Assembly: GCA_900111695.1 (NCBI GenBank)
Contig: FOHD01000003.1
Span: forward strand, 214,275-278,274
Reading direction: 5' to 3'
Length of the DNA: 64,000 nt
Source of the DNA: Olsenella sp. KH3B4
Lineage (GTDB): Bacteria; Actinomycetota; Coriobacteriia; Coriobacteriales; Atopobiaceae
Shown here: positions 3,175 through 54,503 of the stretch, one piece after another
Layout: each line of letters begins with the position of its first letter
Numbering within the stretch: position 1 is the stretch's first letter
Notes under the pieces: model-generated
What the model was told of the DNA's origin: nothing
What the model saw: only the letters and a program-made list of their open reading frames with translations
The model's database searches: none
Program-made: the position numbers and the translations under genes

Positions 3175-3374
3175 TTTTTCCCGAGAAACGCGCGCACTAC
3201 CCTTTCATGCAACTTTTCTGCCCGGCAACTCAGTCCCGCGAACCCCGCGGCGATGACCCCGCAGCGTGTCCATACCCCCATCGATAGCAATGAAGCTGAA
3301 ATGGAGAAGACCTAGTATGGTTTCGCGTTTCTGATTTGGTTGGAATGGCAAAACGGTAAGGGCGTGGTTGAGAG

Positions 3375-39859: not shown

Positions 39860-40714
39860 GTGTGGCTGAACGACTTCTACCACTCACTGAATCCCATCGC
39901 GTTCACGCTTGGACCCTTCCAGGTGCGCTGGTATGGCATCGCGTACCTGGCGGGGTTTTTGTGCGCGGGGTTGGTGATCGCGCGCGTGGCCAGGCGCTGG
40001 AAGCTCGACCTTTCCACCGACGACGTGCTCTCGGTGATGATCGACGTCGCCGTGGGCGTCATCGTGGGCGCACGTATCTTCTACGTGGTGTTCTACGGCG
40101 CGGGGTACTACCTCGAGCACCCGCTCGAGATCTTCGCCCTCAACCAGGGCGGCATGAGCTTTCACGGAGGGCTGGTGGGCGCCCTTCTCGGCGGCACCAT
40201 TGCGTGCAGGCGCTGGAAGCTCTCGGTGCTCACGGTTGCCGACCTCGCTGCCATCGGCGCGCCCATCGGGCTCTTCTTTGGCCGCTGCGCCAACTTCGTG
40301 AACGGCGAACTGTGGGGCAAGGAGACCTCGTTGCCGTGGGGCGTGATGTTTCCCAGCGGCGGGGCGGTGTGCCGGCACCCCTCGCAGCTCTACGAGGCCC
40401 TGCTTGAGGGTGTGGTGCTGTTCTGCGTGCTCTTTGCGCTGTCAAGGCGCCGGCCTCCCCGGCCGCAGGGTACGTTCATCGGGACATTTCTCATGCTGTA
40501 CGGCGTGTTCAGGTTCCTCATCGAGTTCGTGCGACTGCCGGACGCGCAGCTGGGATACCTTCTCGGCACTGGCTGGCTCACGATGGGCCAGGTACTGAGC
40601 CTGCCGCTTGTGGCGGCGGGGATTGTGGTGCTGGTGCTGTCCTCGCGGCACGGCCGTCCGCAGGTGGGGCACCTCGATGCCGCGCCGGACGGCGACGCCG
40701 CGGCAGCCAGATAA
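39860..40714 (+). CDS. lgt: Prolipoprotein diacylglyceryl transferase
   Basis: 284 residues from GTG 39860, 15 bp after the NifU-like stop. Lgt motifs are seen: RWYGIAYLAGF, FHGGLVGALLGG (the H in the conserved GG-loop), and the signature GRCANFVNGELWGK, followed by CRHPSQLYEALLEG. Lgt adds diacylglycerol to the lipobox cysteine of lipoproteins such as the two solute-binding proteins here. Its stop codon (40712-40714) is inside the first copy of a 19-bp tandem repeat. Confidence 0.93.
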   Translation: MWLNDFYHSLNPIAFTLGPFQVRWYGIAYLAGFLCAGLVIARVARRWKLDLSTDDVLSVMIDVAVGVIVGARIFYVVFYGAGYYLEHPLEIFALNQGGMSFHGGLVGALLGGTIACRRWKLSVLTVADLAAIGAPIGLFFGRCANFVNGELWGKETSLPWGVMFPSGGAVCRHPSQLYEALLEGVVLFCVLFALSRRRPPRPQGTFIGTFLMLYGVFRFLIEFVRLPDAQLGYLLGTGWLTMGQVLSLPLVAAGIVVLVLSSRHGRPQVGHLDAAPDGDAAAAR

Positions 40715-40759
40715 CGCCGCTGCAGCCAGATAACACCGCTGCCGCAAGATAACGCTGAT
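40703..40759. repeat. 19-bp tandem repeat, three copies, across the lgt stop
   Basis: Three contiguous 19-bp units: GCAGCCAGATAACGCCGCT (40703-40721), GCAGCCAGATAACACCGCT (40722-40740) and a diverged GCCGCAAGATAACGCTGAT (40741-40759). The first contains the lgt stop TAA. It directly abuts the hairpin module that follows, so it may mark the insertion edge of the accessory unit. Confidence 0.75.
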
Positions 40760-40763
40760 TTCC

Positions 40764-40835
40764 GATACACATTCGGACCCGAATCTGTGACGCGCCAAGG
40801 TCGATACACATTCGGATGACGAATGTGTATCGACC
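40764..40835. repeat. Left two-hairpin module (repeat family 2)
   Basis: Outer imperfect hairpin 40764-40791 (GATACACATTCGG against CCGAATCTGTGAC), a 16-bp linker including GTGACGCGCCAAGGTC, and inner hairpin 40799-40835 with perfect 16-bp arms GGTCGATACACATTCG and CGAATGTGTATCGACC around GATGA. The same order, inverted, is seen at 42192-42260 with linker GACCTGGGCGCGTCAC, so the two modules face each other across the gene at 41199. This resembles paired REP hairpins (BIME). Confidence 0.85.
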
Positions 40836-41198
40836 GAGCCATCTGCGGGGGCGCCTTTTGTCCGTGGGCGTCAGCAAGCTCGAGTCCCCGCTAGCCTAAC
40901 CTCGTGTTGAAAAATCCCGTGCGCGCCTGTGACACGGCGGGCACGTCCAGAACGGCAAATCTTTGATGCCCTTCGTATCCACGCGGCCTTCACATTTCGT
41001 ACCCACCTTTACCAGGGGCTTTTCTGAGCCACCCGCATTCGTTGCTGGCGATAATAACCCGCACCTCGCAACCCGCACCCCAAAATTCCTGCGCGAACCT
41101 CTCAAGCTGCAAGAAAGCTGTCAGAAGCGTGCAAGAACCCCGTCGGCCTTTCTCAGAAACTCGGTTAGCCACCCGGCGCCCGTCGATATCCTTTGGGC
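40836..41198. other. Upstream region of the nuclease-like gene
   Basis: About 360 bp with no supported gene or RNA. It contains repeats of AAGCTGCAAG, AAGCTGTCAG and AAGCGTGCAAG (about 41105-41140) and a stretch of CCGCACC motifs. Less GC-rich than its flanks. It should hold the promoter of the downstream gene; no convincing -10/-35 is seen. Open frames on both strands here have no ribosome-binding site. Confidence 0.5.
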
Positions 41199-42161
41199 AT
41201 GGCAATCTACCTGGGACATACCTCGGCACTTGAGTACTGGCGCGGCAACGATTGGCCGCCGCCGGACGCGTCTCGCTCTGTCCGCATCGACCGACTCGGT
41301 GCGAGCTGTTCTGTAGAACGAAAGGCCTTGGCCTTCTCGCCTCCGTTGTCCGAACTCACCCTTCCCCTGGAGGTCCTCGTCAACGGTTCTACCAGGCGCG
41401 CCGCAACAGCTCTCGAGCATCCCCACTACTGGAAGTGGGGCGGGCTCTTCCTGCCGCTCGAGAACAGCGTCTTCGTTGCGTCCCCCGCAGACACGGTCCT
41501 CCAACTGGCACACGATTTCGACCTCCCTGAACTGCTCCTTCTCAGCTATGAGCTTTGTGGCACATATCGTTTCCCGGTGCGCGGAGAAGAGACTGCCTAC
41601 GGGCGTCCCGCCTGCATGATGCCCGAGTCGTTGCGACGTGCCCTGTATGGGCGAGAGGGGATGCATGGCATCAAGAAGATTCGTCTCGTGCTGCGCTATC
41701 TGCTGCCAAAGTCGGGCTCTCCAATGGAGACGGTGCTGGTACTCGTGCTGACGCTGCCTCCGAGGTTGGGCGGGTACGGGCTTCCCACCCCAGTGCTCAA
41801 CGTGCGCTGCTACATCGACGAGAGCGGAATGACGTACTACATCCCCGACCTCTGGTGGCGGGATCGGAACGTCGTTCTGGAGTACTTTGGCGGGCGCGAC
41901 CACACGGAGCTGCACGACATGGTGTTGGACAACCTGCGGAGAAATGACCTTCTCGACAGCGGCCAGCAGGTGCTTGTTGCCGTGTACGAGCACCTCGCGA
42001 ACGGGGCGAGCATGGATCGCCTGGCCGCGCAGCTGTCGCATCAGCTTGGGCTGGGCAAGATCGAGATGAGCAGAGAGGCGCGGGAGCGCCGGCGCGAGCT
42101 GCGGACCAGGCTCCTTCGATGGCGAGGTGGCGTGGAGGGGCGAAACCGCGAGGGCGCATGA
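41199..42161 (+). CDS. Uncharacterised protein with a possible PD-(D/E)XK nuclease-like end
   Basis: 320 residues, family not recognised with confidence. It starts MAIYLGHTSALEYWRGND; there is no clear ribosome-binding site, and TTG 41193 is an alternative. The middle has the AbiEi-like style of transcript-regulator accessory proteins (FLPLENSVFVASPADTVLQLA). Late residues YYIPDLWWRDRNVVLEYFGGRDHTE (about 210-234) look like PD...ExG..H of Vsr/DUF559-like nucleases. The C end is Arg/Glu-rich and basic. It stands alone, bracketed by inverted two-hairpin modules, like a transposable or REP-associated unit. Nuclease function is inferred. Confidence 0.6.
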   Translation: MAIYLGHTSALEYWRGNDWPPPDASRSVRIDRLGASCSVERKALAFSPPLSELTLPLEVLVNGSTRRAATALEHPHYWKWGGLFLPLENSVFVASPADTVLQLAHDFDLPELLLLSYELCGTYRFPVRGEETAYGRPACMMPESLRRALYGREGMHGIKKIRLVLRYLLPKSGSPMETVLVLVLTLPPRLGGYGLPTPVLNVRCYIDESGMTYYIPDLWWRDRNVVLEYFGGRDHTELHDMVLDNLRRNDLLDSGQQVLVAVYEHLANGASMDRLAAQLSHQLGLGKIEMSREARERRRELRTRLLRWRGGVEGRNREGA

Positions 42162-42191
42162 CGACCACCGCCGTGCCGATGTGCCGCTGCT

Positions 42192-42260
42192 GATACACAT
42201 TCGTCCTCCGAATGTGTATCGACCTGGGCGCGTCACACATTCGTGTACAAATGTGTATCG
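42192..42260. repeat. Right two-hairpin module (repeat family 2, inverted)
   Basis: Inner hairpin 42192-42220, perfect arms GATACACATTCG and CGAATGTGTATC around TCCTC; linker GACCTGGGCGCGTCAC (42221-42236); outer hairpin with ACACATT (42235-42241) and AATGTGT (42250-42256). A further GTGTATCGGGCG partial copy follows to 42275. It mirrors the left module; linker identity is 15 of 16 in reverse complement. Confidence 0.85.
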
Positions 42261-42329
42261 GGCGTGTATCGGGCGAGAAGTGCTCCCGCCGCTCTCCGGC
42301 AGCAACAGGCGCTTCTCGTCTATACTTCA

Positions 42330-42474
42330 GGCGACATTCAAACCGAGGGCACGGTTTGGGCAGCTGTGAGGCCTGCAAATGGATCCCGGTTCTACTCCGG
42401 GTCAGCAACCAGAACTGTGCTCAGATGCGCGCGCCACGCTGTTGGCGGCGTTGCGCCGTGAGGCTACCGTCGCC
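42330..42474 (+). promoter_or_regulatory. Cobalamin-riboswitch-like leader
   Basis: After a -10-like TATACT (42321-42326) comes a structured leader closed by GGCGAC (42330-42335) pairing with GTCGCC (42469-42474). Inside are an AAACCG/CGGTTT hairpin, GGATCCCGGTTCTACTCCGGG (compare the riboswitch core GGAA-CCGGT-A-TCCGG), GC and ACTGT, CCACGCTG, and near the 3' end GAGGCTACCGTCGCC (compare the B12 box AGGAnACCnGCC). The order matches the cobalamin riboswitch, but several core bases differ (GGTT not GGTG). The genes downstream fit corrinoid uptake. Needs a covariance-model search. Confidence 0.55.
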
Positions 42475-42533
42475 ACTCGACGGCCCTGCCTGCCCTCGAC
42501 GCTCCCAAGGGAGCAGATCACAGGGAGGCGGGC

Positions 42534-45500
42534 ATGAAACCCACAAAACCCATGGCAGCGTCCGGGACAAACCTGCGGAAGCGCATCCTGGCGGTCACGT
42601 TGTCGCTGGTCACGGCCGCATCGATGGTGCCCACGAGCGCGCTTGCCGAGGCTGCGGCGGAGTCCGCCCCGGCCACGACGTCGGCAGCGGCTGCCGCGAA
42701 CGCATCGGTCAACATCTACTCCACCTACCTCACCACCAGCGAAAGCTCGACAAGCGGCACCTACGCCTACGCCGCCTCGGACACGCTGTGGGCGTGGGCG
42801 CGCGAACGTGGCGCCAGCGCTCCCATCGATGCCTCCACCCTCACGTACCAGTGGCAGGTGAGCTCCGACAACTCTACCTGGGAGGACATCCCCGGCGCCA
42901 TCGCGCAGTCCCTCTCCCTCGCCAACTACGCTGGCCGTTACGTGCATTGCGTGCTCACGACGGCCGACGGCGTCTCCACGCGCACAACGCGCAGCCGCAA
43001 CGCGGTTGCCGCTGCCGGCTCGGTCAACCTCGTAAGCGTGTCGCTGAGCAACACCGGCAAGCTCGCACCCGGCGACACCCTCACCGCAACGGCCAAGGAC
43101 GCAAGCGGCGCCGACGCCACCTCCAATGCCAGCGTTACCTGGTCCTGGTACGCCAGCGACTCGGCGTACGGCACGGGTGAGAAGATCCCCGGCGCCGAGG
43201 GTCCAACCCTCACCGTTACCTCCGACCTCTTGGGCAAGTACCTCTACGCGAGCGCAGACGGTGGCTACGGGGCAACCGAGAGCTCCGCCGCGGGACCCGT
43301 ACAAGAGGCCGGCGCCGTCACCCTGTACAAGGTGACGGTCGACGCGTCCGGCCGCGCGACGGTGGGCCAGACCATCTCGGCCACGTCATACACCGGCCCC
43401 TACACCCAGGCGACCTCCGCAGACGTGGTGCACTACCAGTGGCAGTGGGCTGCAAGCAACTCGACGGACGACACGGCGTTCACCGACATCCCCGGAGCCA
43501 CCGCCGCGACGTTCACCGTTCCCGCGCAGACCGCTGACGGTATGTCGCTTCTCGGCACGTACCTGCGCGTCAAGGCAATGAGCGGCAACTCCGTGGTCTC
43601 CACCAGCGTTCCGTCCTACTACGGAACTACCTCGCAGGCCCCTGTTGGCCCCGTCGCGCTGGCGGGCGCCTACGACGTCTCAAGCGTGAAACTCTCGTCG
43701 TCGGAAACAAACGCGCAGGTGGGGGCCACGCTCACGGCGCAGCCCCAGTACGAGAAAGCCAGCAGCTGGGGCACCTATGAGGCGGATCTGCCCTCGGACG
43801 CCCAGCTCACCTGCACCTGGTACGCGGCGGATGACGCAGCGGGCACCAACGCGCGCGAGCTCACGGCGGCCGACGGCGCAAACGGCACCACGCTCGTGCT
43901 CTCCCCGTCGCTTGAAGGCTCATACGTGTGGGCAAGCTGCAGCGCGCTCATGGCGTCGGCCAGCAGCGAGAAGACCCAGGTCAAGGCCGCAGGCAGCTAC
44001 GACCTCCACCACGCTTTGGTATCGCCTGCGTCGGGCACGCTCGTCACCGGCGACACCGCAACGGCGACGGTCTACGCCGCGCAGCTCTCGGGCAGCAACG
44101 TGGACGTGACCGGCAAGGACGGCGTGAACTTGCAGTGGTACGTTGCCGCAAGCGCCGATGCCCCGTCGGCAGAGTGGCAGCCGCTTGACGGCTGCACGTC
44201 GGCAAGCCTGCAGGTTCCTGCAAGCGCGGCGGGCAAGTACCTCAAGGTCGTGGCAACAAGCGGCGACGCCTCCGTTTCCGCCGCCTTCGACCAGCCCGTC
44301 GCCGACAGCACCACGCTCGCGGGCGCCGTCGCGCGCCTCCAGAACGAGAACTGGCGCCCCTCGCTCACGTACGGCACCGACACCAACGTGAACGACGTGC
44401 TTCTCGCCAAGCTGGCCGAGGAGGGCGTGGACACCACGGGTCTCACCGTGCGCGTCACCAGCGTCGACTTCCAGGACACTGGCGAAAACGCCACCGTGGG
44501 CATCTCCACCGCAGACGCGGACAACGGCACCGTCACGTACTTCTCGTGCGATACCGACAAGGTCTCCAGCTGGAACATGTCCTCGCTTCAGACGGTGAGC
44601 TCGATCGCGTTCACGCTCTCGCGCGGCGACGAGACCGCAACGTACACCCCCAACCGCACGTTCCAGGTGCCCTGGGACGAGGCTGCGGCGCGCGCGGTGC
44701 TCCAGAAGAAAGCCGATGCCATCACGCTGGGCTTTGCCGAGGGCGACTCCGCGGGCTCCGTGACCCAGGCCTTCTCGCTGCCGGTAAGCCTGGGTGGCGC
44801 CACTGCCTCGTGGAGCGCAAGCGACGGCACCGTGAAAGTAACCGGCGAGAGCTGGGACAGCACCCTCACGGCAACGCCCACGCGCGGATTGGTTGATACG
44901 CCGACAACCCTCACGGCAACCGTGTCCTTCACGGGCTACGGCATGCCCAACGTTACGGTGACCAAGGGCTTCCCGGTTACCGTCAAGGCAGACCCCGAGG
45001 CTGTTGCCGCAGCTCAGGCGGAGCTTGCGTCTACGGTCGAGACGGGCTTCACGTACGAGAAGGTAACCGCCTTCTCGACGGGGGACGCCGTCGACCACGA
45101 GGCCATTACCGGAGACTTGCAGCTTCCTACCACTCGCGCGCTGGGTGTGGACGGCAAGGCCTACAGCGTTTCCTATACCAGCGACGATCCTCTCGTCAGC
45201 TTCAACGGCTACCACGCCATCGTGGTGCGGCCCCTGGGCACCGCGCGCACCGTTGCCATTACCTGCACGGTCACGGATAAGGCGAACCCCCAGGTCACAG
45301 CCACCAAGACGCTCGAGTTCACACTCGCTCCCGTAAGCGAGAAGGAAATCGACGAGGCGGTCTCGCTCATGGAGGACGCCAAGGCGGGGTATGCCTTGGC
45401 GCTTCTCGACGGGCAGGGTGCCAGCAACGTGACAGGGAGCCTCCACACGTTCCTGGGCGCCTACCGCGACGCTTCCGGCAACCTGGCATGGGCGCGCAAC

Positions 45501-48251
45501 CGCGACACCCAGTCCGCGCACCCCGGCATCGTGCTGGTTGACCTGCCCGGATACAGCGACATGGGAGGCATGACCTGGCGCACCTTCAAGTCAAGCCGCC
45601 CGGACGTGATCTCCAACGAGCTTCTCGCCTACACCAAGCCCGCCGACAACACGCGGGTTACCGTAATCTCGCGCCTTGCCGACGAGCGCTTCCAGACCTA
45701 CTACGAGTTCTACAAGGATGACCCCACGGTGAGCGACCAGCTCAAGGCCAAGCTGGCGAGCCTTGTGGACCAGGACGTCTCGGCAACGTTTACGGTCGCG
45801 GGCACCTCCGGCCAGGACGCGCCGGCAACCGTTTCGGCAAGTTGCGCGGTCATTGGCCCCAACGCCACCGGCGCGAGTGTCAGCTGGGCGCCTGAGACCT
45901 CGCTTTCCGTCGAGCCGGGCACCACTGCGGCAGACCTCACCAAGCAGGTTCTCGACGCCAACGGCATCACCTATGACGCCGACCTCTACACCTTCGCCAA
46001 GGACGGCACCTTGCTTGGCTACGACGCCGCAACCGGCAAGTGGTGGCAGCTCTTCATCAATGGTGAATCCGCCACGGTGATGGCCTCAAACTACGTCCTC
46101 AAGGAGGGCGACAAGGTCGTCTGGTACTACTCCGCCTGGGGCGACTCGCTTCCGGGCCAGGTCACCGGCTCGGTCAAGGTGATAGGCAAGGACGCCTCGG
46201 GCCTCGACCAGGTCTGGGCGGATACCACGTCGCTCACCCTCGTGGAGGGCTCCACGGCTGCCGACCTCTCCGAGGCGGCGTTTGCCGAGAAGGGCCTCGC
46301 ACACGATTCCGGCACCGCAAGCTGGGGCTGGTACCTCAATACCATCACCTCGCCCGTGGATGGCCGCGTGCTTGGCTGGGACGCCGAGACTAACGCGTAC
46401 TGGCACCTGTTCGTAAACGGAAAGATGTCACAGGTGGGCGCCGGCAGCGTGAACATAGCCAACGGCGACGAGGTCGTGTGGTACTACTGCGCGGACGCTG
46501 ACAACCTTCCCAAGAGCGACGCCCTGGTTGTCGATCCTGCGGCCAAGCGTCCCGTTGACCTGAGCGCTGCCTGGCCCGGCTACAAGGGCGCTGACGAGAC
46601 GGGCGTGGTGCGCGGGCTCTCGACGCCCGTGCCGGGCTCCGGCACCTACGCCAAGCTCGACTGGGCGCAGTCGCGCCTCACCACCGCCATGTACGTCAAC
46701 GCGAGCGACGCGATCATTGTGAACGGCGACGTCTATGACGCCGTACAGACGCAGCTCTATCGTCGCGACGCGTCCACCGGCCTGGTGCTCGACGAGGCGC
46801 ACCTTGCCGCGAGCGTTGACTCCACGGCGCGCCTGCAGTACGCCGACGGCCTCATCCTTGTGCCCCTGCATAGTGCCCGCATACAGGCGCTCACCGCCGA
46901 CACGCTGACCACGGTTTGGGTCTCGGCGGCGTTGCCCAGCTCGACTAGCTCGAGTGGCAAGGCCGTTGACCAGCAGCTTCTCTCGTCCGTTACCGTGCGC
47001 GACGGCAAGGCGTACTTCTCGACCGTAGCCCCCGACGGCAGTGACTCCTGCGGCGGCTACGTGGCCTGCGTGAGCCTGGCGGACGGCAGCATTGCATGGT
47101 CGCACGAGGACACGGATGCGGGCTACTACTGGACGGGAGCCGTGCCAACGTCTGCGGGGGTGCTCACGGCCAACGATGCTGGGCAGGTCTCGCTGCTCGA
47201 TGCGGCGACGGGTCGCGTGCTCTCCTCGGTCGAGCTGGGCACGCGTTGCCGCGCGCAGCTGGCAGTGAGCGGCAACGTGGCATACGCGGTCACGACCGAC
47301 GGCTCGCTGCACAAGCTCTCCCTGGGTTCTGACGGCTCGCTGACGGCTGGCCGCAGCGTGAAGTTTGGCTCGTACTCCACCTCGTCGCCCACCATCTGCG
47401 ACGGTCTGCTTTACGTGGGCGGCTCCTCGTCCGCAGACGTGACGCGCGGCGCGCTCTTTGTGATTGACCTTGCGTCCATGCAGGTGACGCATGAGGCGCT
47501 GGTGCCTGCGACTGCCGTCGAAGGCCAGGTGGGAACCGGCGACGTGAAGAGCACGCCGCTGGTGAGCGTTGCCGCCGACGGTAACACCTACGTGTACTTC
47601 ACCTGCAACGGCATGCCCGGCGGCGTGTACGCCTACCGCCTGGGCGATACGGTCGCCACCACGCTCTACCAGCCCGCGGCCGACCTCTGGCAGTACTGCA
47701 TGAGCTCCATCGCCTGCGACGCAAGCGGCAACCTCTACTTCTTCAACGACTCCGGCACCCTCTTCAAGCTGGACGCAAGCGAGACCACGTCCGTTCCTAA
47801 CGGGGACGAGGCCGAGAACGGCGAGAACAACGGTGGCTCTGCGGATGGCAGCGGCAACGCTGGTACCAGCGGTAATGCGGGCGGCAACACCGTAGGCGGC
47901 GCCTCTGACAATACCGTCTCGACCCCATCCGCCATGACGTCAGCAAAGCCTCGCGTACCCGTCTCTGCCAGCAACGCGTCGACCGGCTCCGTTACAGTTG
48001 ACCCCGCAGCGTCAGATAACGGCTCGCTTCTCGACAGCTACTCGTCAGAGGACGTGACGAGCGTCACCTCCATTGGCGACAAGGACAACACGGTTACCGG
48101 CGAGACGCCCGCAGCTTACGAGGCAACACAGAAAGGCCTCCCCATCTGGCCCATCGTGGGCACCTGCGTGGGTGTGGCACTGTTCGTCATCCTGCTTGCA
48201 ACGCGTCGTCGCCGCAGCGAGGGCGACGCCACCGAGGGGAGGCGCGGCTAG
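42534..48251 (+). CDS. Giant surface protein with Ig-like, DUF4430 and PQQ-propeller domains
   Basis: 1905 residues. Signal peptide (1-40, ending ALAE), then at least five Ig-like repeats of the type TYQWQVSSDNSTWEDIPGA, YQWQWAASNSTDDTAFTDIPGA (about 50-610), two atypical Ig-like segments (about 610-960), two DUF4430 domains (about 1120-1320; ATGKWWQLFINGE, ETNAYWHLFVNGK), a PQQ-like beta-propeller (about 1360-1760, e.g. AYFSTVAPDG, CVSLADGSIAWSHE), a Ser/Gly-rich linker and a C-terminal membrane helix with RRRR (IVGTCVGVALFVILLATRRRR). DUF4430 is related to the vitamin B12-binding transcobalamin beta domain, so corrinoid capture is inferred. GGAGG precedes the ATG. A riboswitch-like leader lies upstream and its ECF genes downstream. 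Confidence 0.85.
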   Translation: MKPTKPMAASGTNLRKRILAVTLSLVTAASMVPTSALAEAAAESAPATTSAAAAANASVNIYSTYLTTSESSTSGTYAYAASDTLWAWARERGASAPIDASTLTYQWQVSSDNSTWEDIPGAIAQSLSLANYAGRYVHCVLTTADGVSTRTTRSRNAVAAAGSVNLVSVSLSNTGKLAPGDTLTATAKDASGADATSNASVTWSWYASDSAYGTGEKIPGAEGPTLTVTSDLLGKYLYASADGGYGATESSAAGPVQEAGAVTLYKVTVDASGRATVGQTISATSYTGPYTQATSADVVHYQWQWAASNSTDDTAFTDIPGATAATFTVPAQTADGMSLLGTYLRVKAMSGNSVVSTSVPSYYGTTSQAPVGPVALAGAYDVSSVKLSSSETNAQVGATLTAQPQYEKASSWGTYEADLPSDAQLTCTWYAADDAAGTNARELTAADGANGTTLVLSPSLEGSYVWASCSALMASASSEKTQVKAAGSYDLHHALVSPASGTLVTGDTATATVYAAQLSGSNVDVTGKDGVNLQWYVAASADAPSAEWQPLDGCTSASLQVPASAAGKYLKVVATSGDASVSAAFDQPVADSTTLAGAVARLQNENWRPSLTYGTDTNVNDVLLAKLAEEGVDTTGLTVRVTSVDFQDTGENATVGISTADADNGTVTYFSCDTDKVSSWNMSSLQTVSSIAFTLSRGDETATYTPNRTFQVPWDEAAARAVLQKKADAITLGFAEGDSAGSVTQAFSLPVSLGGATASWSASDGTVKVTGESWDSTLTATPTRGLVDTPTTLTATVSFTGYGMPNVTVTKGFPVTVKADPEAVAAAQAELASTVETGFTYEKVTAFSTGDAVDHEAITGDLQLPTTRALGVDGKAYSVSYTSDDPLVSFNGYHAIVVRPLGTARTVAITCTVTDKANPQVTATKTLEFTLAPVSEKEIDEAVSLMEDAKAGYALALLDGQGASNVTGSLHTFLGAYRDASGNLAWARNRDTQSAHPGIVLVDLPGYSDMGGMTWRTFKSSRPDVISNELLAYTKPADNTRVTVISRLADERFQTYYEFYKDDPTVSDQLKAKLASLVDQDVSATFTVAGTSGQDAPATVSASCAVIGPNATGASVSWAPETSLSVEPGTTAADLTKQVLDANGITYDADLYTFAKDGTLLGYDAATGKWWQLFINGESATVMASNYVLKEGDKVVWYYSAWGDSLPGQVTGSVKVIGKDASGLDQVWADTTSLTLVEGSTAADLSEAAFAEKGLAHDSGTASWGWYLNTITSPVDGRVLGWDAETNAYWHLFVNGKMSQVGAGSVNIANGDEVVWYYCADADNLPKSDALVVDPAAKRPVDLSAAWPGYKGADETGVVRGLSTPVPGSGTYAKLDWAQSRLTTAMYVNASDAIIVNGDVYDAVQTQLYRRDASTGLVLDEAHLAASVDSTARLQYADGLILVPLHSARIQALTADTLTTVWVSAALPSSTSSSGKAVDQQLLSSVTVRDGKAYFSTVAPDGSDSCGGYVACVSLADGSIAWSHEDTDAGYYWTGAVPTSAGVLTANDAGQVSLLDAATGRVLSSVELGTRCRAQLAVSGNVAYAVTTDGSLHKLSLGSDGSLTAGRSVKFGSYSTSSPTICDGLLYVGGSSSADVTRGALFVIDLASMQVTHEALVPATAVEGQVGTGDVKSTPLVSVAADGNTYVYFTCNGMPGGVYAYRLGDTVATTLYQPAADLWQYCMSSIACDASGNLYFFNDSGTLFKLDASETTSVPNGDEAENGENNGGSADGSGNAGTSGNAGGNTVGGASDNTVSTPSAMTSAKPRVPVSASNASTGSVTVDPAASDNGSLLDSYSSEDVTSVTSIGDKDNTVTGETPAAYEATQKGLPIWPIVGTCVGVALFVILLATRRRRSEGDATEGRRG

Positions 48252-49445
48252 ATGTCAGACAACGACACGCTGTCCAACAGCAAGCAGCCCGCAAGCGGCA
48301 CGCGCACTGCCAGGGTGATCCTTGCGGTTCTCGCCGCCGCCCTCATCGCCTTCTGCGTGTGGGCGATGTCCGTCTACGCGCAGGGTGGCGACCCGCTCGC
48401 GTGGGTTACGGGTTCCGATGCGTTCCAGACCACGGCTGACGAGACGGACCAGGCAGCCGGTCAGGGCGATGACAGCCAGCAGCAAGCATCACAGGCGCTC
48501 ACCGTCACTACGGATGATGTCTACACGGCGCTTGCGTCGCTCCAGTTTGATGGCATGGACGTCTCGCTCGAGAAGGACGCCACCCACGTGGTCCTCTCCG
48601 CGGATGGCATCTGGGTCGAGGAGGCAAGCTCCGCTCCTGCGCCGGACATGGCACTTGCCTGCGCCCAGCGTTCCGCGGCCCTCGCCACCTGGGCATCCGA
48701 GCAGGGCGTGGGCATCCCGAGCGTCACCTGGATCTGCGAGGACGGCGCTGGCGCCGTGCGCATGGCCATCACCATGCCTACGGACGGCGCCCCCACCACG
48801 GGCAGCCTACCTGCGCTCCTCTCGGCAGCAACGGGCTACGGCATCTCCGGCAACGCGTATGCCCGGCTGGACGCAGACGACATCTCGCAGCTTGCGGGCA
48901 CCGCGCCGACGCTTCCGGACGGCACGGCCGTCTCCATAGACGCCGCCGTGACGGCTTCTGGCGAGGACCTCTCCACCACAGATGTCGCAACGCGTCAGAA
49001 GGAGGTCAGCGCCGGGACAGCGGACACCTCCGGTGCCGGTGCCACGTCCGGCTCCAACGTCTCGTCCTCTAGCAACTCCTCGTCGGCAGGCGGCACGCAG
49101 CCCGAAAGCACGTCTGCCAGCCCCGCCCCGCAGGAGTCCAAGGTCCGCGTCACCGTGACCATCGACGCGCGCGCCGACGGAGGGTCCACCAGCTCGTATA
49201 CCGTCTCGCTCGACCCCGGCGCCACGGCATACGACGCCCTGGTGGCAACCGGTGCCAGCGTGAACGCGCGCAGCACGGCCATGGGCGTCTACGTTGCCGC
49301 AATCAACGGGTACGCCGAGAAGGACCAGGGCGGCGAGAGCGGCTGGAAGTATGCGGTCAACGGCAGCTACCCCAACTACTCGGCAGGTGCCTGCACGCTC
49401 TCGGATGGCGATGCGGTGACGTGGGTCTACGTTACGTCGGCATAG
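48252..49445 (+). CDS. Membrane-anchored DUF4430 protein
   Basis: 397 residues; ATG directly abuts the previous stop. An N-terminal anchor (VILAVLAAALIAFCVWAMSVYA, about 20-45) is followed by an unrecognised region with Trp/Cys (VTWICEDGAGAVRMAI), a Ser/Thr-rich linker (about 245-300) and a C-terminal DUF4430 domain (about 305-397) with ESGWKYAVNGSYPNYSAG and a final VTWVYVTSA. It may pass ligand from the large surface protein to the ECF transporter. Same operon. Confidence 0.85.
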   Translation: MSDNDTLSNSKQPASGTRTARVILAVLAAALIAFCVWAMSVYAQGGDPLAWVTGSDAFQTTADETDQAAGQGDDSQQQASQALTVTTDDVYTALASLQFDGMDVSLEKDATHVVLSADGIWVEEASSAPAPDMALACAQRSAALATWASEQGVGIPSVTWICEDGAGAVRMAITMPTDGAPTTGSLPALLSAATGYGISGNAYARLDADDISQLAGTAPTLPDGTAVSIDAAVTASGEDLSTTDVATRQKEVSAGTADTSGAGATSGSNVSSSSNSSSAGGTQPESTSASPAPQESKVRVTVTIDARADGGSTSSYTVSLDPGATAYDALVATGASVNARSTAMGVYVAAINGYAEKDQGGESGWKYAVNGSYPNYSAGACTLSDGDAVTWVYVTSA

Positions 49446-49473
49446 TGCAAGGAAAGTGCGTCATACTCGTCCC

Positions 49474-50349
49474 ATGCTAACCATGCGAGACACACATACC
49501 GCCTTCGACACCTGTCACCCGGCCGTGCCGGCAGCCTACTTCGCCGCCGCCATCCTCATCGCCATCTTCGCGATGCAGCCGGTCTGCGTGGCCATATCGC
49601 TCGCGGGGGCGCTCGCGTTTTCGTTCGCCGCGCGCGGATGGCGCCGCACGCTCAAGGGCCTCCGCTGGCAGCTCCCCATGGTGGCGCTGGTCGCCGTGGC
49701 CAACCCGCTCTTCTCGGCATCTGGCTCCACGCTGGTGGCCCAGCTTGGCCCTATGGCCATCTACCAGGAGAGCATCGCCTACGGTGCCTGCGCGGGAGCC
49801 CTTCTCGTTGCCGTGGTCCTGTGGTTCGAGGACGCTGCCTGCGTGCTCACCCAGGACCGGCTGCTCCAGCTGGGCGCCCGCGCGCTTCCCACGGTGACCC
49901 TCGTGACCTCGATGGCGGCGCAGATGGTGCCACAGCTCTTGGATCGTGCGCAGACCGTGCGCGCAGCGACGCTCGCCACCACGGCTGCCGCGCCGCAGGG
50001 CTCGCGCGACCGCGGCGTGCGCGTGGCAGACCAGCTCATGAGCTGGTCGATGGAGGACTCCATCGAGCGCGCCGACGCCATGCGCGCCCGCGGATGGGGC
50101 GCTACGGACTGCCGCAGCTGCTACCTGCCCGATTCCTTTCGGAGCTCTGACGCGCTCGCGCTTGCGGGCATAGTGCTCCTGGCGGCGGCAAGTGCGCTTC
50201 TCGTCTCTGTGGCCTGCTCGCAGTGGCGCTTCTATCCAACCATGCCTCGCCTGGTTGCCTGGTGGGGCTATGTTCCGTACATGGTGCTGGCGCTTCTCCC
50301 CACCCTGCTTGACCTGGGGCAGCGCATACGGTGGGGGAGGGTCGCATGA
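49474..50349 (+). CDS. ECF transporter T component
   Basis: 291 residues from ATG 49474; GTG 49456 is also in frame and the start is uncertain as no ribosome-binding site is well placed. Hydrophobic segments and the two coupling Ala-Arg-Gly motifs ERADAMRARGWG and AAAPQGSRDRG fit the EcfT/CbiQ family, which links the S component to the ATPases in the membrane. The stop overlaps the ATPase start by 4 bp (ATGA). In an operon with the DUF4430 proteins. Confidence 0.85.
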   Translation: MLTMRDTHTAFDTCHPAVPAAYFAAAILIAIFAMQPVCVAISLAGALAFSFAARGWRRTLKGLRWQLPMVALVAVANPLFSASGSTLVAQLGPMAIYQESIAYGACAGALLVAVVLWFEDAACVLTQDRLLQLGARALPTVTLVTSMAAQMVPQLLDRAQTVRAATLATTAAAPQGSRDRGVRVADQLMSWSMEDSIERADAMRARGWGATDCRSCYLPDSFRSSDALALAGIVLLAAASALLVSVACSQWRFYPTMPRLVAWWGYVPYMVLALLPTLLDLGQRIRWGRVA

Positions 50350-51785
50350 GTGCGCTTGAGTTTGAAAACGTGAGCTTCACCTATCCCGCAACAGACACGG
50401 AGCCGCACCCCGCACCAGTGCTTGAGCATGTCTCGCTTGCGGTGCCCGAGGGCGCGTTTGCGCTGCTCACGGGCAGCACCGGCTCGGGCAAGTCGACGCT
50501 TCTGCGCCTTGCCAAGCCCGAGGTGGCGCCGGTAGGCACGCTTGTCGGCCACGTGCTCGCGTTTGGCAAGGACGTGCGCACGCTCTCGCCGGTGGAGTCC
50601 GCGCAGACCGTGGGGCTCGTCTTCCAGAGCCCCGATAGCCAGATCGTCTGCGACACCGTGTGGCACGAGATGGCCTTTGGTCTGGAGAACCTGGGGACGC
50701 CTGTAGCCGAGATGCGCCGCCGCGTGGCCGAGACCTGCATGTTCTTTGGCATGGAGCCATGGTTTCGCCAAAAGACGGCAAGTCTCTCCGGCGGCCAGCG
50801 CCAGATGCTCGCCCTTGCCGCTACGTTGGCCATGCGTCCGCGCCTGCTGCTTCTGGACGAGCCCACCTCGATGCTCGATCCAGTTGCCGAGAAGGACTTT
50901 CTCGCCATGCTCTTTCGCGCAAACCGCGAGCTTGGGGTCACCGTGGTGGTGGCAACGCACGCGCCGGAGCCCATGCGCGTCGTGGCCACCTGCGCCTTTC
51001 GCGTGGAGGACGGCCACGTGAGCGAGCTCTCGCTCGAAAAGGCCGTTGCCGCCTGCGCCTTTAGGCCGGAGGAGGTGGCGGCAAAAAGCGTGCCTGCCAG
51101 CGGCAAGCCCGCTGCAGGTGGCTTGACACCTGCGCTCTCCCTTCGCGACGCGTGGTTTCGCTACGGACGCGATGCTGACTGGGTTCTGCGCGGGTTGGAT
51201 CTCACGGTGCCCGAGGGCCAGGTCACGGCCATCGTGGGCGGAAACGGCTCGGGCAAGACTACCCTCTTGCAGCTTGCGTGCGGCTCGCTTGCACCGCAGC
51301 GCGGCCGCGTCTCTCGCCCCCATGCGGCGTCCCAGGCGTACCTGCCGCAAAGCCCGCGTGCGATTCTCTCGGCGCAGACCGTGCGCGACGAGCTCATGCT
51401 CTGGTCAAAGGGCGCGGGCTACGGCGATGCCCAGGTCACGGCCATGATGGGGCGCCTGGGTCTTTCAGACGTTGCGGCGAGAAACCCGCTTGACCTCTCC
51501 GGTGGCCAGCAGCAGCTCGTGGCCTTTGCAAAACTGCTGCTTACGAAGCCGGACCTGCTCGTTCTGGACGAGCCCACCAAGGGCCTCGACGCCGCGGCTC
51601 GCACCAAGCTTGCCCGTCTCGTGCAAGAGTTGCGACAGGAGGGGAGAAGCGTCCTTCTTGCCACGCACGACCTTGCGTTTGTCTCTGCGGTGGCAGACTC
51701 CGTGTCGCTGCTCTTCGACGGGGCCGTAACGTGCACAGAAGGACCCGACGAGTTTCTCGCCGGGTCCTGGCTCTACCACGTGTGA
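50346..51785 (+). CDS. ECF transporter A component, two ATPase domains in one chain
   Basis: 479 residues from ATG 50346, preceded by GGGGGAGGG. Two ABC ATPase domains in tandem. First: Walker A GSTGSGKST, Q-loop FQSPDSQ, signature LSGGQRQ, Walker B LLLLDEPTSMLD. Second (about 265 on): Walker A GGNGSGKTT, signature LSGGQQQ, Walker B LLVLDEPTKGLD and switch His in LLATHD. It joins EcfA and EcfA' in one protein and powers uptake. The product ends at 51785 before a small acidic minus-strand gene. Confidence 0.92.
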   Translation: MSALEFENVSFTYPATDTEPHPAPVLEHVSLAVPEGAFALLTGSTGSGKSTLLRLAKPEVAPVGTLVGHVLAFGKDVRTLSPVESAQTVGLVFQSPDSQIVCDTVWHEMAFGLENLGTPVAEMRRRVAETCMFFGMEPWFRQKTASLSGGQRQMLALAATLAMRPRLLLLDEPTSMLDPVAEKDFLAMLFRANRELGVTVVVATHAPEPMRVVATCAFRVEDGHVSELSLEKAVAACAFRPEEVAAKSVPASGKPAAGGLTPALSLRDAWFRYGRDADWVLRGLDLTVPEGQVTAIVGGNGSGKTTLLQLACGSLAPQRGRVSRPHAASQAYLPQSPRAILSAQTVRDELMLWSKGAGYGDAQVTAMMGRLGLSDVAARNPLDLSGGQQQLVAFAKLLLTKPDLLVLDEPTKGLDAAARTKLARLVQELRQEGRSVLLATHDLAFVSAVADSVSLLFDGAVTCTEGPDEFLAGSWLYHV

Positions 51786-51842
51786 GCTGTGGTGCACGAC
51801 GTAGCGCCGTCGGCACGACGACAGCCTGCTGACGGCAATCCG

Positions 51843-52283
51843 CTAGAAGGTGAGGAACGGCTCCTCCATGCCCTCCTCCTCGAGGTCGTCCTCGGTGAGG
51901 TCGTCCAAGTCCTCCATGTCGTCGAGCTCGATTTCGTCGCCGTCGTCCTCGCCCCAGCCGTATGCGCTGGCAGCAAGCTCGTCCACGCTCGTGTCGGGAA
52001 GGGCGCTGGTCACCGAGCACAGGCCGTCGATGGCGGGGACAATCTTTTGCCACTGGGTGATCACCGGCTCCTGCGGCACGCCTTCCAGCTCGACGAGGGA
52101 GTCAAGGTAGATCTCGCTTGCGCCCTCAAGCAGGTCAGACTCGGCGCGAACGCTCGCGAACTTTGACGCAAACTTCTCGAGGGCCTCGTCCGCCGAGTCC
52201 GCCTCAACCACGCACGGCATGAGGCAGTAGTTGTTTGCCTGGTCCTTGTCATCGTTGTAGCTAAAGTTTCCAACGTAGAGCAT
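51843..52283 (-). CDS. Acidic small protein of unknown function
   Basis: 146 residues from ATG 52283, preceded by GGAGGAGG 5 bp upstream. It starts MLYVGNFSYNDDKDQANNYCLMPCVVEADSADEALEKF and ends in a very acidic stretch (GEDDGDEIELDDMEDLDDLTEDDLEEEG, about 115-142). No family recognised. Antisense to the operon and between ECF A and S genes, so it may interrupt the operon or be separately regulated. Ribosome-binding site and codon use support a real gene. Confidence 0.65.
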   Translation of the reverse strand: MLYVGNFSYNDDKDQANNYCLMPCVVEADSADEALEKFASKFASVRAESDLLEGASEIYLDSLVELEGVPQEPVITQWQKIVPAIDGLCSVTSALPDTSVDELAASAYGWGEDDGDEIELDDMEDLDDLTEDDLEEEGMEEPFLTF

Positions 52284-52426
52284 GGGGCCTCCTCCGGTCG
52301 ATGGGTGCGGCACATGCTCATCTTAGGCAATTCGGCGCAGCTTGGGGGCTGGTTCCCGCAAGCGGGCGCTACGCTATGTGGCATAGAGTGTCACATGCTG
52401 GTTTTCTGACGAGAAAGGCAAGGGCC

Positions 52427-53134
52427 ATGGCAACGAGCAGCGCGATCGCAACCTGCCAACGTGTCATCGCTGGCCTCGAGGTGCCGTCGATAGTCGCTGT
52501 TCCCGCGGTTCTCGTTGCCTGCGCCGTGAACGGCGTGCAGGCGGCTGCGGGGCTCTCGCTTCTGGTGGTGGTTCTCTGCGTGGGGCTCTTTCTGGCCAGC
52601 TTCGAGGCCTCGCGGCCTGCGCTCCGACAGGTCATGCCCACGGCCACGCTCGCGGCGCTGGCGGCGGCCGGGCGAATCCTCTTTGCCCCCATTCCCGACG
52701 TCAAGCCCGTCTCGGCGATTGCCATTGTCGCGGGCGCCACGCTGGGCAGACGCGAGGGCTTCATGGTGGGTGCGCTGGCGGCGCTGTTGTCCAACTTCTT
52801 CTTTGGCCAGGGCGTGTGGACGCCCTGGCAGATGTACGCGTGGGGGCTCGTCGGCTACCTCGCGGGCGTGCTGGGTGAGCGCGGTCTTCTTAAGCGCCGC
52901 GGCGCGCTGCTCGCGTACGGGTTTCTCTCGGCTCTCCTTTACGGGGCGATTCTCAACGGCTGGTACGTGGTTGGGTACGTGGAGCCCATCACCTGGCCCA
53001 CCGTGGCCGCAGCGTATGCGGCTGGTCTCCCGTGGGACTGCCTGCACGGAGCCGCCACGGTGGGCTTTCTCGCAGCAATCTGGGTGCCGTGGGGCGTGCG
53101 CATCCGACATGCCGTCGCGAAGTACGGCCTGTAG
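52427..53134 (+). CDS. ECF transporter S component, probably corrinoid-specific
   Basis: 235 residues from ATG 52427. Six or so hydrophobic segments with the S-component pattern GRILFAPIPDVKPVSAIAIVAGATLG, RREGFMVGALAALLSNFFFGQGVWTPWQMYAWGLVGYLAGV. That motif string is common in CbrT-like vitamin S components. It probably binds the transported vitamin; the link to corrinoids comes from the DUF4430 genes and leader upstream. Separated from the A component by the small minus-strand gene, so it has its own promoter or is reached by readthrough. Confidence 0.78.
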   Translation: MATSSAIATCQRVIAGLEVPSIVAVPAVLVACAVNGVQAAAGLSLLVVVLCVGLFLASFEASRPALRQVMPTATLAALAAAGRILFAPIPDVKPVSAIAIVAGATLGRREGFMVGALAALLSNFFFGQGVWTPWQMYAWGLVGYLAGVLGERGLLKRRGALLAYGFLSALLYGAILNGWYVVGYVEPITWPTVAAAYAAGLPWDCLHGAATVGFLAAIWVPWGVRIRHAVAKYGL

Positions 53135-53179
53135 CGGGTCGCCGGGCCGCCGCCGGGCCGTCCCTCCCCTCGAAACGGG

Positions 53180-53280
53180 AAAACTGCGGCTTAATTGCAG
53201 TTCAAGACAGAGGCTGCCGAGAAGAACCGCAGGTAGCGTGCTTGGGCCTTCGTGGCGAGGTGCAATTAAGTCGCAGTTTT
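53180..53280. repeat. Wide inverted repeat, 20-bp arms
   Basis: AAAACTGCGGCTTAATTGCA (53180-53199) and TGCAATTAAGTCGCAGTTTT (53261-53280) are complementary at 19 of 20 positions with a 61-bp interior. Both arms are AT-richer than the region. They could form one long hairpin in RNA, and may be a terminator-like or small-RNA element after the ECF S gene. Confidence 0.75.
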
Positions 53281-53329
53281 GGCGGCTGGGCCGCGTCCGG
53301 GCAGGTTCCGGGCCCCGCCGCCCGTGCCG

Positions 53330-53371
53330 CCCCCGCACCCCGCACCCCGCGCCCGCACGCCCCGCGCCCCC
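53330..53371 (-). other. G-quadruplex-prone C-rich block
   Basis: Seven runs of three to five Cs separated by 1-5 bases on the plus strand (for example CCCCGCACCCCGCACCCCG). The minus strand satisfies the G3+N1-7 quadruplex pattern several times. It lies 230 bp upstream of yebC. Whether it forms is unknown. Confidence 0.45.
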
Positions 53372-53597
53372 ACCAAAAATTGTGAAGAAACCCGGACTTC
53401 CGCCCCGCGCTACGCGCCCCCATGCCCGCTCACCCTTGCGTCAGCGTCAACAGAGAGTAAAATTTCATAGGTTCAATGGGTATCGACCGCGTTCGCAGCC
53501 CCTGTCGCCCCAAGGTGACGCCAGCCGCACGCCCTCGCGCCCGCAGCAAGCAAGAAGCGCGGACGCGTGCCCGCGCGCCGTGTGGATAGGAGACTCA

Positions 53598-54401
53598 ATG
53601 TCCGGACACTCTAAGTGGGCTACCACCAAGCACAAGAAGGCGGCCATCGACGCCAAGCGCTCGTCGCTCTTCTCCAAGCTCTCGCGCAACATCACCGTTG
53701 CCGCCAAGATCGGTGGCGACCCCAACCCGGACAACAACGCCACCCTCGCCGCTGCCGTCCAGCGCGCCCGCATGGTCTCCATGCCCAACGCCAAGATCAA
53801 GGCGGCCATCGACAAGGCCTTCGGCGCCGGCGCCGACGCGGCCGTCTACGAGGAGATCACCTACGAGGGTTACGGCCCCGCAGGCGTTGCCCTCTACGTC
53901 GACTGCCTGACCGACAACAAGAACCGCACCGCCGCAGACGTCCGCTCCGCCTTCACGCACGCTGGCGGCAACCTCGGCACCTCCGGCTCCGTCGCGTTCC
54001 AGTTCGAGCGCAAGGGCTCCATCGCCGTCGAGAAGGTCATCCACAGCGACGAGAAGAAGGTCCCCGACCGCGAGAACGCCGTGGACGAGGACGAGTTCAT
54101 GCTCGCCGTGGCCGAGGCCGGCGGCGAGGACTACGAGGACGCCGGAGACGAGTGGATCGTCTACACCGCCTACGACAAGATGCAGGACGTCCAGAAGGCG
54201 CTCGAGGCCCAGGGCATCGAGGTCAAGGGCTCCGAGCTCACGATGATGCCCACCACCCCCACCGACGTCTCCGTCAACGACGCCAAGAAGGTCCAGCGCC
54301 TCATCGACCGCCTCGACGAGCTGGAGGACGTCCAGAACGTCTACAGCACCATGAACGTCACAGACGAGATCGCCGAGGCCCTCGCAGAAGACGAGGACTA
54401 G
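53598..54401 (+). CDS. yebC: YebC/PmpR family DNA-binding regulatory protein
   Basis: 267 residues. The start MSGHSKWATTKHKKAAIDAKR and the KIGGDPNPDNNATLAAAVQRARMVSMPNAKI block are family-defining (TACO1/YebC fold), with the acidic C-terminal domain. Family members act as transcription regulators or help translation of proline-rich stretches. The ATG follows GGAG. It is slightly longer than usual (about 245-250). Confidence 0.93.
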   Translation: MSGHSKWATTKHKKAAIDAKRSSLFSKLSRNITVAAKIGGDPNPDNNATLAAAVQRARMVSMPNAKIKAAIDKAFGAGADAAVYEEITYEGYGPAGVALYVDCLTDNKNRTAADVRSAFTHAGGNLGTSGSVAFQFERKGSIAVEKVIHSDEKKVPDRENAVDEDEFMLAVAEAGGEDYEDAGDEWIVYTAYDKMQDVQKALEAQGIEVKGSELTMMPTTPTDVSVNDAKKVQRLIDRLDELEDVQNVYSTMNVTDEIAEALAEDED

Positions 54402-54409
54402 CACGCTAC

Positions 54410-54440
54410 CGGCGCCGGCGGCCACAAGGCCCCGGCGCCG
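54410..54440 (+). terminator. Probable terminator after yebC
   Basis: Outer arms CGGCGCCGG (54410-54418) and CCGGCGCCG (54432-54440) enclose an inner GGCC-ACAA-GGCC stem. It lies just after the yebC stop and before the exopolysaccharide operon. The tract CTCTCTTCT follows instead of a pure T-run. Confidence 0.65.
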
Positions 54441-54503
54441 CTCTCTTCTCGGCACCCGTCTGCAAGGCCCCAAAAGCCAAGCTCCCGTCCAAGGGAAAGG
54501 TCA

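Follow-up and report, generated by a model that had tools for sequence, protein, structure and literature searches.

Palindromic Modules beside a Nuclease-like Gene Family of Coriobacteriales: A Possible Counterpart of the REPIN/RAYT Partnership

The Gene at lgt and Its Flanking Modules

The window analysed here is a 64-kb stretch of the genome of Olsenella sp. KH3B4 (G000; 2.38 Mb assembled in 22 contigs), which was compared with seven congeneric genomes (G001–G007). Between lgt, our synteny anchor, and the gene of a very large protein lies a gene whose product we assign to clade A, together with two palindromic modules designated type A:

39860–40714, + strand: lgt, the upstream neighbour and synteny anchor (Pfam LGT, 5.5e-78)
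40695–40755, + strand: 19-bp tandem repeat, three imperfect copies; overlaps lgt at that gene's 3' end
40764–40831, + strand: left type-A module, 68 bp (type-A model R1, E 1.6e-18; the sequence belongs to the set on which the model was trained)
40764–40775, 40780–40791, 40803–40814 and 40820–40831, + strand: half-sites of the left module, with the linker at 40792–40802 (GCGCCAAGGTC)
41199–42161, + strand: gene of the clade-A protein, 320 aa, with orthologues 70–77% identical in five other congeneric genomes
42192–42259, − strand: right type-A module in mirror orientation (model R1, E 2.8e-18; likewise a training sequence)
42248–42259, 42232–42243, 42209–42220 and 42192–42203, − strand: half-sites of the right module, with the linker at 42221–42231
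42534–48251, + strand: the downstream neighbour, a large protein of 1905 aa (Pfam aBig_2, 2.7e-10)

A sequence-only reading of this region had described a pair of hairpins on each side of the gene, the two pairs mirroring one another, and the description is confirmed: positions 40762–40831 and 42192–42261 form a 70-nt inverted repeat, 91% complementary, with 1360 nt between its arms. The linker comparison made in that reading is equally exact, since GTGACGCGCCAAGGTC on the left and the reverse complement of its counterpart on the right are identical at 15 of 16 positions. Each type-A module is composed of two palindromes (12-4-12 and 12-5-12) separated by an 11-nt linker, and their half-sites are close to GATACASATTCG. 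At the window gene the inner hairpins have perfect 12-bp stems and the outer hairpins three mismatches each; as the two modules are oppositely oriented, it is the perfect hairpin with the 5-nt loop that faces the gene from both sides. The 68-bp geometry was imposed in one alignment, and a separate fit that left loops and spacing free recovered loops of 4 and 5 nt in most copies, the exceptions being G006 and some extra hairpins in L065. After removal of one out-of-register row (L065_1540) the collection numbered 34 distinct modules, 32 of which were used to build the covariance model.

The same reading had placed a 19-bp tandem repeat at the left edge of the presumed element. The repeat is indeed there, in three copies, but it overlaps the end of lgt and has no copy (at up to four mismatches) within about 1.5 kb of five clade-A orthologues, and for these reasons we judge it to be incidental. 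The large neighbours of the clade-A gene are LGT and a protein with an atrophied bacterial Ig domain (aBig_2; the scan covered its first 1000 of 1905 residues), and no AbiEii nucleotidyltransferase was found to adjoin it.

The clade-A gene is located at lgt in six of the eight congeneric genomes, one copy in each, and modules flank it on both sides in all six (the window and L037–L041); a gene without hairpins at this place throughout the relatives, which the sequence-only reading had envisaged as evidence against itself, is thus not what these genomes contain, and neither do they bear out its other counter-case, hairpins that are ordinary terminators scattered at random between genes. The five orthologues, from Olsenella sp. 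kh2p3, Tractidigestivibacter scatoligenes SK9K4, Olsenella sp. Marseille-P4559 and two MAGs, have between one and four modules per side, and their lgt-side flanks can be aligned with that of the window. In L040 (G004, contig C8) the gene contains an early in-frame stop, and the modules are nevertheless retained. The variation in presence or absence at lgt for which the earlier reading had suggested looking does exist: in G001 and G003 lgt was found and the clade-A gene was absent. In the lgt spacer of these two genomes a type-E module adjoins a fragment that is similar to the outer half of the type-A module on the right, and a clade-E gene is present in each genome (L050 and L056). Because this type-A-like fragment persists in the spacer, the clade-A gene has probably been lost from this locus in G001 and G003.

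Left and right type-A modules of the same genome differ by 5–9% (closest pair) and those of more distant genomes by 15–20%, in a comparison of five genomes made without G006, whose modules are out of register. In G002, G005 and G007, modules on the same side (2–9% different) are as alike as left and right modules within a genome, and consequently no concerted change is demonstrated for these three.

Dispersal of the Type-A Module

The pattern CGAATGTGTATC, with at most one mismatch allowed, occurs 20 times in the G000 genome, versus twice for a reversed control pattern. With the covariance model (E <= 1e-3; up to 150 candidates scored per genome), the genomes G000 to G007 gave at least 13, 39, 54, 42, 70, 92, 40 and 85 type-A matches, respectively, which sum to at least 435. 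Modules isolated from the gene, for which the sequence-only reading had also suggested looking, do occur: at least 39 and 42 matches are present in the gene-less G001 and G003. These totals do not track the gene, as gene-bearing G000 has at least 13. For the same series of genomes the perfect type-A hairpins number 4, 0, 4, 2, 4, 9, 1 and 5, and the reversed control pattern has none; the gene-less G001 and G003 have 0 and 2, and the six gene-bearing genomes from 1 to 9. With eight genomes, a correspondence between the number of perfect hairpins and the presence of the clade-A gene is no more than suggestive.

None of the 30 type-A loci, some of which come from one array, falls within a coding-like ORF as defined by our own codon-GC rule, versus 56 of 120 control positions; this extragenic test covered type A. 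The claim that the entire unit of about 1.5 kb is mobile is unsupported, because the gene keeps its place at lgt in six genomes and the next-best matches to the clade-A protein in the gene-bearing genomes are at most 35% identical (its paralogues in G000, 28–35%). What is dispersed is the module and not the whole unit. At L034 (positions 3225–4052; G000, contig C9) a pair of genes, the second with a DUF4160 domain, lies between two type-A modules that point the same way at a distance of 760 bp, and contig C24 of G005 has two module matches at the same 760-bp spacing.

The Protein Family

The window protein has no match in Pfam, PADLOC or NCBIfam. Among 22 congeneric members of its family, at E <= 1, DUF559 is matched by seven (best 6.5e-7) and REase_MTES_1575 by eight (best 0.0037), and AbiEi_4 is absent; the family's Pfam matches include no transposase domain, Y1 HUH (IS200/IS605-related) among those. 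The best PDB match, the endonuclease-like protein 3hrl, is not significant (E 0.027). S174, E177, D217, R247 and G255 are the same in all of 16 diverse members compared, and G157, E228 and H235 in nearly all. When we follow the sequence-only reading in calling the window protein nuclease-like, it is on the strength of its relatives' DUF559 and MTES_1575 matches and of these conserved residues, the protein itself lacking a Pfam match. Both AbiEi_4 and DUF559 score over the cut-off in L304 and L305, two distant relatives from the Actinomycetota (ten proteins scanned), and palindromes adjoin both of their genes.

A Palindrome for Each Branch

A profile of the 22 members matches the genomes G000 to G007 at 10, 4, 8, 5, 12, 12, 7 and 11 places, respectively, where two matches are sometimes pieces of a single gene (G000 has nine genes). 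The best inverted-repeat score within 800 bp is at least 18 for 36 of the 64 congeneric family genes and at least 16 for 44, a count that includes contig-end genes with short flanks (L052, L058, L164 and L174) and the broken L155 and L178 (score 0). Control positions with the same flanks reach 18 in 3 of 112 cases and 16 in 13 of 112 in the window, and in 21 and about 31–32 of 286 on a G005 contig; these positions overlap one another, and gene-less modules were left in on the G005 contig. Dinucleotide shuffles of the flanks of the first 33 genes never attained a score of 16 (0 of 990). The evidence for an association of genes and modules is strong.

The arms of the palindromes have a sequence that is common within a branch of the family and different between branches: ACGGTTGGTGGCAGT in C, AAAGTGAACACG in J, CTGCGGSTTAATWGCA in K, CCTCACACGTGATRTTTCT in F, TTGTTACCGGC in H and AATTATTGCGCG in I. 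Modules flank the gene on either side in A, C, D, F, G, I, J and K; B, E and L have them downstream, H and M upstream; and the branch formed by L030, L051 and L061 has no convincing module. Types B2, E, G, K and L likewise have modules remote from any known family gene. In the fetched part of the genomes, types D, F and J have none away from genes, and type I has a lone half-site.

Of 61 genomes sampled from 35 genera of the window's bacterial family, 53 genomes, representing 32 genera, contain members of the gene family. Nineteen of 27 genes from 17 other genera of that family score at least 16 and 13 score at least 20, as do, at the threshold of 16, four of seven genes from other families of Coriobacteriales. 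In a sample of the phylum the profile matches 22 of 149 genomes (E <= 1e-10), comprising 10 of the 11 Coriobacteriales genomes listed, in which the match is mostly full-length, and 12 from outside the order, in which it mostly covers the C-terminal half. Outside the order, scores of at least 16 were found for 3 of 10 distant relatives, 5 of 13 DUF559 genes of two-domain size and 1 of 9 small DUF559 genes, so that palindromes near such genes are less common there. DUF559-like genes with palindromes on both sides are nevertheless encountered in other actinomycetotal families (L274, L275, L304 and L305), and L275 has four palindrome copies, about 40 bp apart, on either side. A small DUF559 gene, L290 (G205), has copies of ATGTTTCACGTGAAACA on both sides, a sequence that may resemble the parS site of ParB.

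The Centre of the Module

Where the interior of the module has a fixed length, its middle carries a recurrent short motif. This motif was spotted by eye and then tested, and the profiles described below are the one test trained by position and not from a selected motif; module centres were extracted with the distance between the arms fixed or bounded. Allowing one mismatch, CAACTGGG is found in 4 of 6 modules of type F, 11 of 17 of H, 3 of 4 of I, 16 of 19 of J, the single M and 1 of 3 of D, and AACCGCAGGT in 2 of 3 of B1, 2 of 2 of B2, 0 of 2 of B3, 6 of 6 of C and 6 of 6 of K; types G and L are largely without either. The CWGG within the J-type and CCGCAGGT centres is, we presume, close to the Vsr site CTWGG.

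A position-trained profile of the middle 14 nt of type J recurs in F, H, I, M and K (0 of 500 shuffles in each), more weakly in D (12 of 500), G (12 of 500) and C (13 of 500, with one of six C matches central), and is not significant in B1, B2, B3 or L. The corresponding profile of type C recurs in B1, B2, K and I (0 of 500 in each, yet in I one of four matches is central), in B3 (4 of 500) and more weakly in H (11 of 500), and is not significant in F, J, M, D, G or L. A single centre for all branches is upheld only in part. In a leave-one-out test, for which the starting motif had been picked after the data were seen, types A, D and L failed (shuffles at least as high in 200, 11 and 24 of 200, respectively), and a seed-free Gibbs search did not single out the centre motif. 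By eye the type-A linker (CGCGCAGGTC) is like the second class of centre, but type A is among those that failed this test.

Turnover of Modules and Change of Arms

For type C, 124 of the 143 listed half-sites form inverted pairs at a spacing of 112–115 nt, and the 27 distinct copies in the fetched loci, extracted under the same constraint on arm distance, have conserved arms and a variable interior. In two genomes the clade-C gene is flanked by arms of 158 and 159 nt, with 2 and 0 mismatches. Type-C half-sites are most numerous in G006 (34 + 36; G005 has 7 + 5), where their loci include L183–L187, and no clade-C gene was found in G005 or G006 (the broken G006 gene L178 lies outside the tree).

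In clade B the arms are of three kinds: G000, G001 and G007 share one, G002 and G005 another, and G003 and G004 the last, all at an identical site downstream of the gene. The two arms change jointly and their pairing is kept, with 0, 1, 4, 2, 0, 0 and 2 mismatches in G000, G001, G007, G005, G002, G003 and G004; the interval between them is alike in the first five of these.

A difference of module type is seen at an intergenic site of the window 12 kb from the first locus:

53180–53280, no strand assigned: type-K module without a gene, arms 53180–53199 and 53261–53280 (AAAACTGCGGCTTAATTGCA / TGCAATTAAGTCGCAGTTTT, one mismatch), centre GAACCGCAGGTAG

This site is occupied by type K in the window and by type A in four relatives, and the clade-K gene of G000 sits elsewhere (L180; contig C14, 13.8–14.8 kb). 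A type-H cluster at 51.8 kb on contig C12 of G005 is larger than its counterpart in G002. Among the differences in presence or absence, none amounts to the clean insertion of a module alone, with an empty site or a target duplication, and no junction is clean enough for an insertion to be delimited.

Interpretation and Alternatives

The analogy drawn by the sequence-only reading, with REP/BIME hairpins and a RAYT protein but with another type of enzyme, holds well: the modules are dispersed and extragenic, and the gene that they flank is single-copy and at a conserved place. We consider it somewhat more probable than otherwise that the palindromic module and an unrelated Vsr-type nuclease form a REPIN/RAYT-like partnership, the binding, cutting and movement in which we infer. 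The clade-A protein would be a DNA-acting protein of two parts, an N-terminal one that may read DNA, as its AbiEi-like counterpart in two distant relatives suggests, and a C-terminal nuclease domain of Vsr type (DUF559/MTES_1575-like), with the palindromic module as its proposed partner. The N-terminal part would recognise the branch-specific arms, and the nuclease domain would act at or near the module centre. Its activity might copy, convert or preserve modules, the sequence being unable to distinguish among copying, gene conversion and pure maintenance, and a vertically inherited gene could in this way sustain a population of small repeats, as a RAYT does for REPINs. That the protein binds its own module is plausible in view of the AbiEi precedent. 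Counting against the partnership, the presence of the gene and that of the repeats sometimes disagree, as for type C in G006 and type A in G001 and G003; one branch has no convincing module, types D, F and J were not met away from genes in the fetched part of the genomes, and no insertion is clean.

The strongest competitor, which we regard as unlikely though worth serious attention, is that the modules are operators through which an AbiEi-like N-terminal part controls its own gene and, by way of the dispersed copies, others, without any mobility. PMC7319586 describes how AbiEi antitoxins attach to inverted repeats of 23 bp within their own promoters, and neither of the two tested there bound the other's repeats; the near-fixed geometry of the modules and the conjunction of AbiEi_4 with DUF559 in L304 and L305 agree with such a role. 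Modules of types B, E and L, however, lie downstream of their gene, the 22 congeneric members show no AbiEi_4 match at E <= 1, and a mirrored copy behind the gene, tandem arrays and up to at least 92 matches in a genome are more than an operator requires.

Decidedly less probable is a role for the modules at the RNA level, in which a long stem, conserved at its top, would be bound or cut by the protein and serve as antitoxin RNA or guide. The long stems of types F, K and M and the joint change of the clade-B arms would suit it, but in types C and J RNAalifold backs the outer arms only, the type-A modules are mirrored on both sides of the gene, and no Rfam family reaches its cut-off in 40000–54500, where a weak mir-10 match overlies the right module (23.8 bits; cut-off 47.5). 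An RNA helix is not favoured for type A in particular, its pairing showing covariation no higher than in shuffles. We give slightly less credence still to a defence nuclease for which the modules would be marks of self or decoys. The restriction-like nuclease domain of the relatives and the many divergent paralogues per genome fit that role; the conserved place at lgt and the want of a PADLOC match for the window protein speak against it.

A conventional transposon with terminal inverted repeats is improbable. It would account for repeats mirrored at both ends and for the long, nearly perfect arms around the clade-C gene of two genomes, but target duplication was not found and the family matches include no transposase domain; as a reading of the whole unit it is not favoured, since the clade-A gene occurs once per genome and at lgt in all six. 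Finally, chance or ordinary terminators, suggested by the frequency of short hairpins between genes (a score of at least 13 at 26 of 112 window control positions), can be dismissed, for there is no terminator-like site in 40600–42600, which rejects terminators at the window gene, the best inverted-repeat score there is 52 against a maximum of 18 at 113 control positions in the window, and the CGAATGTGTATC counts in G000, the type-A matches and the scores of the 64 genes beside their controls and shuffles point the same way.

For the REPIN/RAYT-like partnership we would go further, with a confidence just short of even, and propose a new class of repeat-enzyme replicators across Coriobacteriales, in which diversified AbiEi/Vsr-type nucleases would each recognise, and spread or conserve, the palindrome of their own branch, with recognition switching in the course of evolution. 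The open-licence literature, which excludes preprints and most subscription journals, yielded no description of this link between gene and repeat. If the proposal is true, the REPIN/RAYT system is not singular: throughout an order of bacteria, enzymes of an unrelated class have come to be paired with short palindromes in a similar way. Nature would then also have provided many pairs of enzyme and site, and since the palindrome of one branch differs between species, the rules of recognition might be read by comparison. A possible function is thereby offered for proteins that remain unnamed in the family libraries searched (Pfam, PADLOC and NCBIfam).

Comparison with Known Systems

With MITEs and insertion sequences the modules share their shortness and inverted ends, but the gene here is not multiplied, and we came upon no parent transposase that shares these ends; unlike insertion sequences and transposons with terminal inverted repeats, there are no near-identical complete copies, the G000 paralogues having the low identities given above. 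The Vsr, DUF559 and MTES_1575 nucleases resemble the C-terminal domain through the matches of the relatives and the conserved D, E, H and R; no paper on a repeat partner for them was found in the open-licence literature, apart from preprints and most subscription journals. The type IV toxin-antitoxin protein AbiEi, which binds cognate inverted repeats (PMC7319586), has a counterpart in the AbiEi_4 N-terminus of the distant L304 and L305. It differs in that here the N-terminal part is fused to a nuclease domain, the repeats are dispersed and lie on both sides of the gene, and there is no AbiEii-like large neighbour.

REP palindromes carry a GTAG/CGTC tag at one end. The modules described here have branch-specific arms and often a centre motif, their movement is conjectural, and their enzyme family matches DUF559/MTES_1575, with no Y1/HUH transposase match. 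The likenesses to REPINs are more numerous. In PMC3116915, REPINs are palindromes that flank a gene present once per genome, each distinct gene having its own palindrome class, and their copies are dispersed and extragenic, with conserved ends and a variable middle. Here, type-A palindromes flank the clade-A gene in six of six genomes, types A and C exist in many dispersed copies (extragenic for A), the enzyme is single-copy at a stable inherited place (in clade A only), each branch has its own palindrome class, and the ends of type C are conserved and its middle variable.
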